A stretch of 64,000 nt of DNA from Oscillospiraceae bacterium (GTDB lineage: Bacteria > Bacillota > Clostridia > Saccharofermentanales > Saccharofermentanaceae). This document shows, one piece after another, positions 6,814-48,286 of this stretch. The notes beneath the pieces were generated by a model. That model was not told the origin of the DNA, did no database searches, and worked only from the letters and a program-made list of their open reading frames with translations. Every line of letters begins with the position of its first letter. Within the stretch, counting starts at the first letter, position 1. The stretch is taken from positions 124,001-188,000 of the forward strand of contig CACWXL010000005.1 of the NCBI GenBank assembly GCA_902764825.1, written 5' to 3'. The position numbers were made by a program, and so were the translations under genes.

Positions 6814-7104
6814 AAAAAACGCCCTCTGACAAAAGATCTTCTGATCTTTTAGTCAAGGACGAATACTCTTTATATCCGCGGTGCCACCTTGATTCACGAT
6901 CTGACTCGTGCGCTTAGCAAGATACAAACATATCTCCGGCCTCTTACGCGTGCCTCACGTCGCAATATACTTGGGGATCTGCCCTTTCCTCTGCGCCCTC
7001 CGGAGTCCATTCACTAAAAGGCCCTTGCTACCCGGATCTCACCATCCCGGACTCTCTTTGAACGGTTCCTTAAAGTTACTCACTCTCCGTCAACGGTTTA
7101 AACT
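6814..7104 (-). promoter_or_regulatory. T-box leader, tryptophan specifier (UGG)
   Basis: A tRNA-sensing attenuator ahead of trpEG. On the minus strand the conserved T-box AGGTGGCACCGCGGA lies at 6875-6889. It is followed by a long terminator stem whose arms centre on GACTAAAAGATC and GATCTTTTGTC (6814-6861), ending in a run of T. Stem I shows AGTA, AGAGAG and the distal-loop element GGATGGTGAGA. The specifier is read as TGG at 7007-7009, framed by the usual GAA before and A after. Uncharged tRNA-Trp should stabilise the antiterminator and switch on trpEG. The T-box itself is certain; the specifier assignment is by pattern. Confidence 0.93.
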
Positions 7105-33581: not shown

Positions 33582-34343
33582 ATGAGAATAGCGAGCTGGA
33601 ATGTCAACGGAATAAGAGCAGTTGCAACCAAAGGGTTTGCAGAGAGCCTTGAGAAGATCGGTGCGGACGTCATAGGCATCCAGGAGATCAAGGCAATGAA
33701 AGAGCAGTTAGGCCCTGAGATCACCGACATTCCGGGCTATAAGAGCTGGTTCTATTCTGCCGAGCGCAAGGGTTATTCCGGCACGGCTCTCTATTCGAAG
33801 ATCGAGCCCAAGAGCGTCGAATTCGGCTTCGGCGTTGAGGAGTTCGACCATGAAGGCCGCGTCATCAAGGCTGATTTCGGCGATTTTGTACTCTTCAACA
33901 TCTACTTCCCGAACGGCGGCAGAGGCGATGACTTCGTTAAGTTCAAGCTCAGATTCTACGACTGCTTCTTAGATCAGGTCGATGCCCTTAAGGCACAGGG
34001 CAAAGAGGTCATCTGCTGCGGCGATGTGAATACCGCACATAAGGAGATCGACCTTTCCAACCCCAAGGCAAATTCAAAGATATCGGGCTTCCTTCCCGAA
34101 GAACGCGCATACATGGACAAGTTCATCGAAAGGGGTCTTACCGACACTTTCAGGATGCTCCATCCGGACGACAAGGAATGCTATACCTGGTGGTCCTATA
34201 AGACCGCTGCAAGAGAGCGTAATGTAGGCTGGAGAATAGACTATTTCTTCACAACGGACGGGCTCAATTCACGTGTCAAAGAGTCGAACATGATGACTGA
34301 TATCATGGGCTCCGATCATTGCCCTATCTATCTGGATATCTAA
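33582..34343 (+). CDS. xth: Exodeoxyribonuclease III / AP endonuclease
   Basis: A 253-residue member of the EEP nuclease family that incises DNA at abasic sites during base-excision repair. The motifs are clear: SWNVNGIRA, IGIQEIKA (metal-binding Glu), GYSGTALYSK, CCGDVNTAHKEIDL (Asp and Asn), TWWSYK, WRIDYFF and the terminal SDHCPIYL (catalytic Asp-His). The length and order match bacterial ExoA/Xth. The ATG has GAGG six bases upstream. Its stop codon overlaps that of the convergent EAL protein gene. Confidence 0.95.
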   Translation: MRIASWNVNGIRAVATKGFAESLEKIGADVIGIQEIKAMKEQLGPEITDIPGYKSWFYSAERKGYSGTALYSKIEPKSVEFGFGVEEFDHEGRVIKADFGDFVLFNIYFPNGGRGDDFVKFKLRFYDCFLDQVDALKAQGKEVICCGDVNTAHKEIDLSNPKANSKISGFLPEERAYMDKFIERGLTDTFRMLHPDDKECYTWWSYKTAARERNVGWRIDYFFTTDGLNSRVKESNMMTDIMGSDHCPIYLDI

Positions 34344-37300
34344 GCTTCCCCGCCTCTGGTATTGTGCTCGAAAAGACGCCCGTTGATGTCGAGCTTGGTA
34401 AGGGAACCCGTTACCTGGAAATCCATATCGTCTGAATGCTTCGGAACATCAAGGTTTGTGAAGATAACGCCCTCGACCTTGGAATTGGATACCCTGACCT
34501 TGACCTTATTATCCATTCCCCTGTAGATCCCGGCCTGTTTGCCTCCGAGATCGACTCTTAAGGTGACATAATCGATCGTGATATTTGAAGGTGCGGCCGT
34601 ACCGGATCCGATGACTGTAATGTCATGCGCCTTGGACTGCGCGATAACTGTCGCACTGTAGACACTTATCTGAAGCTTCTCGCTGTGCTTCGAACCGATC
34701 ATGACGATCTCCGCGCCTTCGAAATCCAGATTCAATGAGGAGTGCTCGATCATCATGTCGCATCTGCCCATGAAAGAACCGATTCCGACAGCCGACTGCG
34801 CAACGCTCTTGATGCCGATATAACAATTGCTGATAAGCGGTTCTATGTCTCCGAAATAAGACCCTATTCCGACAGAGTTCTGGCCCATGAGATTAAGCTT
34901 ATACATGCCTCGTCTGACCGTGATGTGTCCGCCGAGGCCGCTTCCTATCGCCACGCTCTTGTTGGCATTGACGGTTATCTCGATAAGTCCGTCCTGATCG
35001 AAAACAAGATCTCCGTGATAAGAATCCATATCGTTTCCGATACCGAATGTCTCGATCGCCGTCGAACTTATGGAAAGGTTTCCGACACCTTCGAAAGTAA
35101 GGGTAGACGATGCTGCTGCCCTGATGCCGCCGGAAAGCGAATTCTCTCCGGTAAGTGATAATACGACTTCGCAGTCTTCACCGATGTCTATCGCAGGCAT
35201 GTTATCCGCACCCGCAAATGAACAGTTCTCAAGCGCGATCTTGCCCTTGTAACCGTTCTCGATCTTTATTCCGACAGATCCTTCGTCGCCCGGAACACCG
35301 ATGATATGAAGGTCTCTGTGCGTAACTTGTCCGGCTGTAACGTGGATCGTATTGTATCCGTCCTTGATAAGGATAGGCAGCGAGATCCTTGCCTCTCTTC
35401 CGGCAACATAGTCCCTGTTGGTGTGACTGCTGCCCCTGTTGCTGCTGTATCTGATGAGCTCTTCCCTGACCGGTGCAGGGATCTCCCTGATGATGTTTGC
35501 CGAAGGACGGGCAATGTAATAACCCTGAACGAGGTCGATCCCGAGATTGATGACAGTCTCTACTTCTTCCGCGGTCTCGACGCCTTCTGCAAGCGCCAGG
35601 ATATTATTGTCGTGAGCGAACTCGATGAGATCCTTTACGAAGTGCTGCTTCTGCGGCGAATCCTGGATATTGGCAAGAAGCGCCCTGTCGATCTTGACGT
35701 AGTCAGGCATATACCGCAGGAGATTGCTTACATTGGAATAACCGGTGCCGTAGTCGTCAACGGCAGTCTCAAAGCCGGCCTTCATGTATTCCGACTTCAT
35801 GTCGGATAGTTCCTGATCGTCGATCTCCGACTGCTCGGTAAACTCAACAACCAGCCTGCCTGCAAAAGCCTTTGCCTTGTCGGCGATCTCCTTCATATCC
35901 TTATTCTTCAGGCGCTGTCCCGGGATCGAATTTATGAAGATCTTGGCGTCGCCCTTGAACGAATCCGTATTCCTGTTTATGTAATCAAGAACATTATTGA
36001 AGGTCGCATGCTCGATATCGTAGAGCCTGTTGAACAGTCCCGCATATCTGATGGCAACGAGCGGCTGGATGATCGGGTGAGTATCAACTCTCATCAGCGC
36101 TTCATAAGCATAGATCTCGCCGTTCCTGACATCGATGATCGGCTGGAAGTAATAGTTGATCTTATTCTTGTCCAGGATCTCATTTACTATCTTTGCCTCT
36201 TCGATCTGGGCATCAGTCAGTCCGTCGGCATTGAGCTTCTGGATGTTCATCTTCTGTCCGTTCTTCCTGGACAGCGCCACCGAGACAAGGGACTCATAAT
36301 CGGTCCTGGTCCTGGGCGTTCCTTCCGCGGTACCGTAGTATACTTCAAGCTTCCTTCTTCCTTCGGGAAGATCCCGGTTGAAGTCAGCTATTCTCTCATT
36401 AAGCTGCTGCTTTCTTTCTTCCATGACCTCATCGACTTCGCTGCCGCTGCTAACGACCTCGAGTGCGACCATCTCGCCGTTGCCCATGCTGTAGATCTGG
36501 CCTCTGGAGAAGACCTCGTTAAGGAAACGGCCAACACTTATGATCGTGTTGTCGCCTGCCGCTCTTCCGTTGTCATTATTGATCCTGGAAAGATTCTTGA
36601 TATCGATGGCAAGCGCTCCGATCTTCTCGTTCTCCTTCAAAGGATTGAGAGCGATTATGCCTTCCGTCTGCCTTAAGAATCCGTTGTAGTTATAGAATCC
36701 CGTGAGCGGGTCTCTTACGAGGCTTGCCTCAAGCTTCTTGTTGATGGTATTAAGTTCATCGTATCTTCTGAAATTCTCAAGACCTCTCATTATGCTGTGA
36801 AGCCAGAAACGGTAAGACTTCTTATAAGATCTGGGATCCGTATAGGACAATACCGCATAGCCGAAGATCGATTCCTCAAAATGCAGAGGCGTAAAGAAGA
36901 ACGCCTCAGGCTTTATCCTCTCCATATCGAGTCTCGGAATGAGAACATCCCTGTCAAAGTAGACATCGTCGCTCACTCTGTCGCAGTTATAACTCTCAGG
37001 CCTGCATGCTATTACATGCATCATCTTTCTCGAGAAGAACTTGTCAGTATCAGAAAGCCTCTCGGGCGAGAGCCTTGATTCATCGATGGCTCCTGACATG
37101 AGCTTTGCCTTTGTCTGCCATCTGTCATTAAGGCAGATCGAGAAGCTCTCGAAATCCCTTATCTGGAAAACATAAGAGAATGTGGTCTTCATGAAGCCGT
37201 TAAAGTCATTTTGTATGACAAGGTCCTCATCCAAATGGTTGAATGAAGAGAAAACGCTGTTGTGGGAAGTATCCGTGTCCCAGACTTTTCGAAGCCTGGT

Positions 37301-38185
37301 CTCATACCGGACCTTATCACTGCTGCACCCGCAGCTCCTTCCGCAGAAGAATTCGCCGGTATCCTTAAAAGGCTCGCTCTTCTTCCCTTCCATGGAATCG
37401 AAAAGATAACCTAAAGCATAAGAACCCATTGCCTTGGCCGGGATCTTAATGGAAGTGATCGGCTTGGGTGAATATCTGCCTTCTTCAGTCGAATCGTAGC
37501 TTGCGACAGCGATATCCTCAGGAACCCTGATGCCGCCCTCCTCGAGAGCTTTTGCAAGACCTATCGCCATGCAGTCGTTGGCGCAGGCAATGGCCTGGGG
37601 AAGCTTTCCGCCCTTCTTGATCAGACGGTCGCCCAGACTCTCTCCGCTCGTATACCAGAAGTCTCCGTAGAAAACTCTGTCCCTGCCTACTGACAGGCTG
37701 TGCTCTGACATGGCATCGATAAATGCCTGAAGTCTCTGCTTTGAATAATGGTGCCAGGCCTTACCGGTAAGATAAGCGATATCCGTATAGCCGTGTTCTT
37801 CGATCAGGTGGTTTACAAGGATCTTCACCGCCTCGTAGTGATTCGGGAATATCGACGGGAAATACTTGCTCTCCTTGTCGACAAATACGACCGGACACTT
37901 GCAGCGTTCATGGATCATCTGCTCGATACTGTCAGACAGGCCCGGCGACTGCAGGGTGTCCGCCATGACTGCAACAGCATCAAATTCCTCAAAGGGAACA
38001 AGAGAGAAGATCGACGTCTCGCCCACTTCTCTTCCGAGATTATTCTGATATTTGAGGTAGCTTCCGAAGACCAGGACATCGGCATCGTGCTTAAAGGCAT
38101 TATCGATGAAGCCCTCAATGAACTGGGACTGATAGTATTCATCAGCCTGGGCAACGAGTAAAGCTATTCTTTTACGGTCCGCCAT
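34340..38185 (-). CDS. LacI-type sensor / degenerate GGDEF / EAL / beta-helix fusion protein
   Basis: A 1281-residue soluble protein with a domain order I have not seen. Residues 1-285 are a LacI/periplasmic-binding-like domain without a DNA-binding head (VVFVDKE, DIAYLTG, CANDCMAIGLAKAL, TSIKIPAKAMG). A CGRSCGC cluster follows at about 280-290, then a region to 480 of unknown fold. A GGDEF domain (490-650) has SMGNGEMVAL in place of GGDEF and is inactive. An EAL domain (670-905) keeps EALMR, INS, EFTEQSE, VDDYGTGYSN, KIDR and AEGVET, so cyclic-di-GMP hydrolysis is plausible. Residues 930-1281 hold IGS repeats (VGIGSYFG, VGIGSFMG, VMIGSKHS, TVIGSGTA), suggesting a beta-helix. There is no signal peptide or membrane segment. 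The ATG at 38185 follows AGGCGGG. Confidence 0.85.
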   Translation of the reverse strand: MADRKRIALLVAQADEYYQSQFIEGFIDNAFKHDADVLVFGSYLKYQNNLGREVGETSIFSLVPFEEFDAVAVMADTLQSPGLSDSIEQMIHERCKCPVVFVDKESKYFPSIFPNHYEAVKILVNHLIEEHGYTDIAYLTGKAWHHYSKQRLQAFIDAMSEHSLSVGRDRVFYGDFWYTSGESLGDRLIKKGGKLPQAIACANDCMAIGLAKALEEGGIRVPEDIAVASYDSTEEGRYSPKPITSIKIPAKAMGSYALGYLFDSMEGKKSEPFKDTGEFFCGRSCGCSSDKVRYETRLRKVWDTDTSHNSVFSSFNHLDEDLVIQNDFNGFMKTTFSYVFQIRDFESFSICLNDRWQTKAKLMSGAIDESRLSPERLSDTDKFFSRKMMHVIACRPESYNCDRVSDDVYFDRDVLIPRLDMERIKPEAFFFTPLHFEESIFGYAVLSYTDPRSYKKSYRFWLHSIMRGLENFRRYDELNTINKKLEASLVRDPLTGFYNYNGFLRQTEGIIALNPLKENEKIGALAIDIKNLSRINNDNGRAAGDNTIISVGRFLNEVFSRGQIYSMGNGEMVALEVVSSGSEVDEVMEERKQQLNERIADFNRDLPEGRRKLEVYYGTAEGTPRTRTDYESLVSVALSRKNGQKMNIQKLNADGLTDAQIEEAKIVNEILDKNKINYYFQPIIDVRNGEIYAYEALMRVDTHPIIQPLVAIRYAGLFNRLYDIEHATFNNVLDYINRNTDSFKGDAKIFINSIPGQRLKNKDMKEIADKAKAFAGRLVVEFTEQSEIDDQELSDMKSEYMKAGFETAVDDYGTGYSNVSNLLRYMPDYVKIDRALLANIQDSPQKQHFVKDLIEFAHDNNILALAEGVETAEEVETVINLGIDLVQGYYIARPSANIIREIPAPVREELIRYSSNRGSSHTNRDYVAGREARISLPILIKDGYNTIHVTAGQVTHRDLHIIGVPGDEGSVGIKIENGYKGKIALENCSFAGADNMPAIDIGEDCEVVLSLTGENSLSGGIRAAASSTLTFEGVGNLSISSTAIETFGIGNDMDSYHGDLVFDQDGLIEITVNANKSVAIGSGLGGHITVRRGMYKLNLMGQNSVGIGSYFGDIEPLISNCYIGIKSVAQSAVGIGSFMGRCDMMIEHSSLNLDFEGAEIVMIGSKHSEKLQISVYSATVIAQSKAHDITVIGSGTAAPSNITIDYVTLRVDLGGKQAGIYRGMDNKVKVRVSNSKVEGVIFTNLDVPKHSDDMDFQVTGSLTKLDINGRLFEHNTRGGEA

Positions 38186-38346: not shown

Positions 38347-39378
38347 TCAGGCAAGAACTCTGTCAACGGGAGCATATCCCGTTGTCTTCTTGAATCTGAT
38401 GTTGCTCTCGAAACTCTCGAGGCAGTCAGAAGGATCGATGCGTTCGAAGTTCAAAGTTGCAAGAGCATCCCTCTTGATCTTGACTGAAGCGATAGTAACT
38501 TCCTCATCGTTGCCTGTTGCAGGATTAAGGACCTTATCGACTGCATGGATAAGCACCGCCTTGACCGGCAGGAGCGCAAATGTATCTCTTGCGACTCTGA
38601 GCATCGTGCTTGAAACATAATCCTGTACGAGCTCATAGTAAGCGGACTTCGTGAAATCCTTCATTACCAGCTCACCGTTTGCCTTCATGTCAGGATACTG
38701 AGTAGGAACGATGTCACCGGACTTAACCTGGAATTCGATCTGCATGATCTGGGGATCGTCTGTTCCGACTTCAAAACCGCTGCCGTATTCAAGAAGATCA
38801 TCAAAAGGTCCGACTTCAGCGATGACATTGAAATATGCATCTATGTCGCCTGCCAGAACGCTCTGTGCGAAAGGCTGGAGTTCCTTGAGCTGACCTGATA
38901 CAGCACCGTTTGCGAGAGCTTCCCAGTCGATATAGCCGTCAGACTGCTTATGAACGGACTTAAGCGCTTCGATTCCTGCTGCAAATTCTTCGACCTTTGC
39001 CTTGGATGCTGCGATGAGTTCTTCATTAACTGCGGGCTTTGCTGCTGCCTTAGCTCCGACAGCTGCACCTGCCGCACCTGCTGCGGCTGCCTTTGTGCTC
39101 TTTGCTGCCTTGGGCTCAGCTGCGGCCTTGCCGGCAGCCTTCTTATTCTTTGCATCCTGAGCCTTGCCGGTCAGGCTGCTTACAACGTTCTTAACGTTGG
39201 TATTCTTCGTGTAATAGATTCCTGTTCCGGGAATTCCTACCGTGGTCCTTGCCTGACCCTTGAGGTTTACGGACTGTCTGAATCCGCTCTTGCCGAATGA
39301 GACACTGGGGCCTGATTTGCTCAAGTTAAGCTTTAAGCCTTTACCCAAAGAGATCGATTTGCGAAAATTAAGTCCCAT
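38347..39378 (-). CDS. DUF4236 N-terminal domain protein
   Basis: A 343-residue protein. The first 55 residues are a clear DUF4236 domain: MGLNFRKSISLGKGLKLNLS, then SFGKSGF and TTVGIPGTGIYYTKNT. An Ala/Lys-rich low-complexity stretch (about 70-115) is followed by a C-terminal domain of about 220 residues, with DYFNVIAEVGPFDDLLEYGS-like and YYELVQDYVSSTMLRVARDTF segments and probably two mixed alpha/beta halves. DUF4236 has no defined function. GGAGG precedes the ATG by eight bases. It stands alone between the EAL gene and the Fe-S genes and is probably cytoplasmic; no membrane segment is seen. Confidence 0.75.
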   Translation of the reverse strand: MGLNFRKSISLGKGLKLNLSKSGPSVSFGKSGFRQSVNLKGQARTTVGIPGTGIYYTKNTNVKNVVSSLTGKAQDAKNKKAAGKAAAEPKAAKSTKAAAAGAAGAAVGAKAAAKPAVNEELIAASKAKVEEFAAGIEALKSVHKQSDGYIDWEALANGAVSGQLKELQPFAQSVLAGDIDAYFNVIAEVGPFDDLLEYGSGFEVGTDDPQIMQIEFQVKSGDIVPTQYPDMKANGELVMKDFTKSAYYELVQDYVSSTMLRVARDTFALLPVKAVLIHAVDKVLNPATGNDEEVTIASVKIKRDALATLNFERIDPSDCLESFESNIRFKKTTGYAPVDRVLA

Positions 39379-48135: not shown

Positions 48136-48139
48136 CGGA

Positions 48140-48270
48140 AGCGTCCAAGGCGGAGTGTGATTCTCCGACCGGCGGTGAACGTTAGACGCGTAAGCCCGCA
48201 AGCCTCATAAATTCTTAAGGTGAGGTTGACCCGGTGTGATTCCAGGGGCCGACGGTAAAGTCCGGAAGAA
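48140..48270 (+). ncRNA. FMN riboswitch (RFN element)
   Basis: The conserved RFN blocks occur in order: GGCGGAGTGTGATTCTCCG, ACCGGCGGTGAA, GCCCGCAAGCC, TGACCCGGTGTGATTCCAGG, GGCCGACGGTAAAGTCCGG. The ribosome site of ribU (AAAGGAAG, 48270-48277) abuts the 3' end and there is no intrinsic terminator in between. This suggests FMN blocks translation of RibU rather than transcription. The closing stem P1 looks short or poorly paired. Confidence 0.95.
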
Positions 48271-48286
48271 AGGAAGTGTATTTTCT

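Follow-up and report, generated by a model that had tools for sequence, protein, structure and literature searches.

Enzymes that hydrolyze c-di-GMP through an EAL domain are a known phosphodiesterase class. In CC3396, a degenerate GGDEF domain binds GTP and in this way activates its EAL domain (PMC3431978), and the activity of EAL domains depends on and is controlled by dimerization (PMC5301497). The LacI-type sensor is among the domains whose ligands are only predicted in the c-di-GMP literature (PMC8846402). Outside the cell, secreted Cthe_2159 proteins (PF14262) bind cellulose and polygalacturonic acid (PMC6712302), and the adhesins and polysaccharide enzymes discussed below carry beta-helices in extracytoplasmic locations. 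Here we describe a gene from an Oscillospiraceae bacterium, in a 64,000-nucleotide stretch of one contig (the window), whose product joins an EAL domain to a cytoplasmic beta-helix. The enzyme class is thus already known, and the cytoplasmic beta-helix on the EAL domain is what is new; we found no description of this architecture in the literature searched, and no known family that has it in Pfam or by sequence in NCBIfam and the PDB. The gene and its domains, with the C-terminal beta-helix labelled SOL, are as follows.

34340..38185, minus strand: the whole EAL/beta-helix gene, an uninterrupted open frame encoding 1281 amino acids, stop included.
37316..38173, minus strand: LacI-family periplasmic-binding-like sensor, residues 5-290, without an HTH (Pfam and PDB sequence matches).
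36752..37303, minus strand: linking domain, GAF-like by eye, residues 295-478, conserved in 75 of 103 relatives and without a Pfam match.
36242..36748, minus strand: degenerate GGDEF domain, residues 480-648, with GNGEM at 568-572 (Pfam).
35504..36181, minus strand: EAL phosphodiesterase domain, residues 669-894, with a complete catalytic set (Pfam).
34376..35410, minus strand: C-terminal parallel beta-helix (SOL), residues 926-1270 (AlphaFold2 model and VIA-align).
34535..35047, minus strand: part of the beta-helix made of six regular coils, each of 27-31 residues with an IG[S/N] motif (motif chain and glycine conservation).

The protein begins MADRKRIAL..., a start that it has in common with its homologues, and orthologues of about 1285 amino acids keep the order of LacI-like sensor, GAF-like domain, degenerate GGDEF, EAL and beta-helix unchanged. 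The sensor matches Peripla_BP_3 (E 2.6e-27, residues 125-271) and Peripla_BP_1 (E 7.9e-12) in Pfam, and PurR, LacI and CcpA are the PDB sequence matches of the N-terminus. Like these three regulators it has the Peripla_BP fold by sequence and a predicted cytoplasmic location, but unlike them it has no HTH, since Pfam gave no such match and the N-terminus is the first strand of the periplasmic-binding domain, and it is joined to a phosphodiesterase instead of a DNA-binding output. The GGDEF domain is a weak Pfam match (E 4.4e-11), and the EAL domain scores E 2.7e-51 and 174.7 bits against a cut-off of 31.3 and resembles solved phosphodiesterases in a PDB sequence comparison. Hydropathy revealed no signal peptide, transmembrane helix or surface anchor in the 1281-residue protein, which, judged from its sequence, is soluble and cytoplasmic. 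An earlier note on this DNA had already recognized a single soluble chain of 1281 residues with a LacI-type domain lacking an HTH, an inactive GGDEF domain and a complete EAL catalytic set, and all of these domains were found; the GAF-like domain at residues 295-478 it had overlooked. Its observation is confirmed and its interpretation partly supported.

The catalytic positions of the EAL domain (E, N, E, DD, K, E and Q, including the ExLxR motif) are invariant in all 103 distinct proteins that we collected, and the enzyme is most likely an active c-di-GMP phosphodiesterase. The GGDEF domain, by comparison, lacks the GG(D/E)EF signature of an active diguanylate cyclase: it reads GNGEM here and GNGE[F/M/I/L/Y] in most relatives, and 54 of 64 have lost the acid at the third position. 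Residues D528, N536 and D545, which on the basis of PleD we take to be guanine or metal contacts, are present, and the matching positions are kept in 60, 61 and 56 of the 64, respectively. A complete EAL set together with an acid-less GGDEF domain that retains presumed GTP-binding residues is also the arrangement of CC3396/PdeA-type phosphodiesterases, and by analogy with the CC3396 scheme GTP may act on the enzyme described here. It differs from that type in having a C-terminal beta-helix and a LacI-type cytosolic sensor, and in belonging to a distinct EAL clade.

The fold of SOL is called from an AlphaFold model and from VIA-align Z-scores. AlphaFold2 with 23 homologues gave a structure that is nearly all strand (mean pLDDT 90.1, pTM 0.89), and this alignment-based model was used instead of a poor single-sequence AlphaFold model of the C-terminus (pLDDT 49). 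VIA-align matched it to Vag8 (Z 24.3), PfbA (20.8), NosD (20.2), UpaB (19.9) and AlgE6 (19.8), so that among solved structures SOL comes nearest in fold to polysaccharide enzymes and adhesins that are secreted. As a group, Vag8, PfbA, NosD, UpaB and AlgE4/6 have the same fold as SOL at Z about 20-24 but are extracytoplasmic and only 6-12% identical to it in sequence. A plain Foldseek search of the PDB with the model had no hit with an E-value under 0.05, and with values this weak the fold class is well supported while no particular solved relative is singled out. The model thus provides good support for a parallel beta-helix of stacked coils of about 28 residues, with the handedness taken from the structural matches.

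Within the helix, motifs of the IG[S/N] type start near residues 1047, 1078, 1105, 1133, 1161 and 1190, followed by AGIYR at 1218, with spacings of 27-31. A chain of six motifs at 26-32 spacing occurred in 0 of 5000 shuffles, and glycines 1050, 1081, 1108, 1136, 1164 and 1193 are kept at 93-100% in 101 relatives; identity autocorrelation of the helix was not significant, so the evidence for repeats is motif-based. The repeats of the IGS type about 28 residues apart that had been noticed earlier are therefore there, but the predicted helix also covers residues ~926-1046, where no IGS motif is found. Mean identity is 39% for SOL and 60% for the EAL domain, which places the helix among the faster-evolving parts of the protein. 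Its conserved positions are mostly glycine, hydrophobic and Asn, and Asn 987 and Asn 1015, which lie 28 apart, look like an asparagine ladder. No catalytic pattern was recognized among the conserved SOL positions, and the fast divergence together with the mainly glycine, hydrophobic and Asn conservation suggests that SOL has no catalytic site.

Searches with the SOL sequence in Pfam, NCBIfam and the PDB returned empty or chance matches, and we compared profiles with hhalign, using a SOL profile of 101 sequences as the query and the reversed SOL profile and an EAL profile as controls. Against secreted IGG-repeat proteins the probability was 97.3-98.0% (reversed control 12.8%), and against Cthe_2159 proteins it was 93.4% (reversed control 5.7%); the EAL profile gave about 0. 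Although scores of this kind are inflated by repeats, the controls suggest true kinship of SOL with secreted beta-helices. Among Clostridia, the IGG-repeat proteins L111, L208 and L210 have the GIG-GG repeat style in common with SOL, but they are secreted surface proteins that carry a signal peptide and surface modules and no signalling domains, unlike SOL proteins. The similarity to Cthe_2159 is likewise one of profiles between a secreted and a cytoplasmic protein and lies below the Pfam cut-off: PF14262 had no match in 23 SOL members, and the best score, 13.5 bits in L172, falls short of the required 25.8. The beta-solenoid and its kinship to secreted beta-helices, both proposed in the earlier note, are thus borne out by the model and by these profiles.

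The pair of EAL domain and beta-helix is present in 103 distinct proteins. Of 115 genomes from the window's family, 70 have SOL. Samples from two further Clostridial families gave it in 22 of 148 and 16 of 250 genomes, and a phylum-wide sample in four of 398, one of the four being the secreted relative L111 (E 8e-4), which has no EAL. Plasmid and phage collections gave no match. The hosts are rumen MAGs labelled Saccharofermentans or Ruminococcaceae, Lachnospiraceae MAGs and Ruminococcus albus, and the pair is rarer in Lachnospiraceae and Ruminococcus than in Saccharofermentans-like rumen bacteria. In all intact SOL proteins the EAL domain precedes SOL by 14-72 residues (median 17), and SOL frames without an EAL are contig-end fragments only.

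What lies in front of the pair is variable. A LacI-GAFlike-GGDEF front end occurs in 59 SOL proteins and a LacI-GAFlike front end without GGDEF in 16, R. albus among them; others have two transmembrane helices and a GGDEF-like region (e.g., L110, L158 and L160) or a GGDEF-like front end without transmembrane helices. Seven proteins of about 700 amino acids (L145-L150, L173) have short N-termini of ~75-90 residues and keep the EAL domain and helix while the sensors are gone. By hydropathy the transmembrane helices, where present, are N-terminal to the EAL domain, which would place EAL and SOL together in the cytoplasm. A few members (L160, L165) show isolated hydropathy peaks within the EAL domain or the helix. 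In L177 (2879-5767, minus strand) a peak at residues 866-884 lies just past SOL and is possibly a third membrane segment.

In a tree of EAL domains, a branch with support 100 and length 2.09 separates all 57 SOL-bearing EALs from the 28 non-SOL EALs that the same genomes encode. Applied to six genomes, a model of the subfamily EAL scored ~52 non-SOL EALs at no more than 108.5 bits and the SOL-bearing EALs at 221 or above, and in these genomes the helix was never lost from a subfamily EAL. By tree and profile, the SOL-bearing EALs are a distinct EAL subfamily, so far undescribed. The pair appears to have arisen once, and a single fusion event with sensor swapping afterwards is the simplest reading.

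The gene neighbourhood identified no general partner, as synteny is found at the genus level only and does not recur outside the genus; a PilZ effector of c-di-GMP is absent. Directly upstream lies a gene for a DUF4236 protein (window 38350-39378, minus strand), whose place is conserved in 32 relatives of the genus. Elsewhere in the window, Rfam matches mark a T-box leader (6852-7102, minus strand) and an FMN riboswitch (48137-48281, plus strand). A sugar theme around the gene comes from two observations. In six relatives (L080, L091, L092, L093, L095 and L096) a GH2 gene is directly upstream on the same strand with a median gap of 6 bases, an operon-like arrangement of one subgroup, and the genome of the window encodes a 1041-residue protein (L005:538-3660, minus strand; G000 contig C1 near 443.3-444.97 kb) that joins a GH16-like domain, a LacI-type sensor and an intact GGDEF domain. 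This protein has no apparent signal peptide, and its GH16 signature, GQIDMVE at residue 131, has Gln in place of the nucleophile, the first Glu. A second LacI-GGDEF gene (L007) adjoins L005.

On balance, we favour the view that the protein is a cytoplasmic, ligand-steered enzyme that hydrolyzes c-di-GMP and belongs to a distinct EAL subfamily, one permanently coupled to a non-enzymatic beta-helix module. Some small ligand within the cell, probably a sugar, would bind to the LacI-type domain, and the signal would pass through the GAF-like domain to the catalytically dead GGDEF domain, which perhaps still binds GTP; the EAL dimer would then be altered and the hydrolysis of c-di-GMP to pGpG changed. 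Neither the sensing of sugars nor control by GTP can hold for all members, because the LacI and GGDEF domains have been lost in some of them. The pairing is constant while front ends change, and thus the helix is expected to work with the EAL domain, be it as input, output or scaffold; it would be a binding or assembly module that docks a partner, holds the dimer or binds a glycan. Since dimerization controls EAL activity, assembly control by the helix is plausible, and docking and glycan binding are equally so.

Two more specific roles for the helix are each possible but, in our estimate, doubtful. In the first, the helix is a cytoplasmic glycan sensor: it would bind oligosaccharides taken up by the cell, storage polysaccharide or precursors of the cell wall, and would thereby switch the EAL domain. 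This would fit the profile kinship to secreted beta-helices, the polysaccharide binding of Cthe_2159 proteins (PMC6712302), the LacI sensor, the GH2 neighbours, the GH16-like/LacI/GGDEF protein and the short members that retain just EAL and helix, but the helix diverges fast, no conserved polar cluster was recognized in it, and kinship with secreted helices speaks to ancestry, not to binding. In the second, the helix is a mere structural cap or oligomerization device that stabilizes the EAL dimer without a ligand, as the dominance of structural residues in its conservation, the dimer dependence of EAL activity (PMC5301497) and the variable length after the EAL domain (~310 to ~425 residues) might suggest; a 340-residue solenoid that every member keeps is, however, large for a simple dimerization device. 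That SOL was secreted at one time, became attached to the EAL domain by chance and is neutral today agrees with its rapid divergence but is very improbable, as the helix is kept with its fold-defining residues in 103 distinct proteins from several Clostridial families and was not lost in the six genomes examined. A sequence error joining two genes, by assembly or frameshift, which the unusual architecture had raised as a concern, is refuted by the identical EAL-helix join in dozens of independent assemblies.

A further reading we consider unlikely enough to offer it only as a conjecture: gut Clostridia may have recruited extracellular polysaccharide-binding folds into c-di-GMP enzymes of the cytoplasm, where these folds would sense glycans inside the cell. 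If so, recruitment would cover both the beta-helix on EAL and the GH16-like domain on GGDEF, and it is conceivable, with the same reserve, that these belong to a carbohydrate-sensing c-di-GMP circuit without a described counterpart. Throughout this one subfamily of phosphodiesterases, which spans several families of Clostridia, a helix with kin among adhesin-like and polysaccharide-binding domains of secreted proteins has been retained in the cytoplasm. It offers a defined system for the effect of a cytoplasmic beta-helix on an EAL enzyme, a question that the short natural members of about 700 amino acids make tractable, and for how fibre-degrading gut bacteria connect sugars to c-di-GMP.
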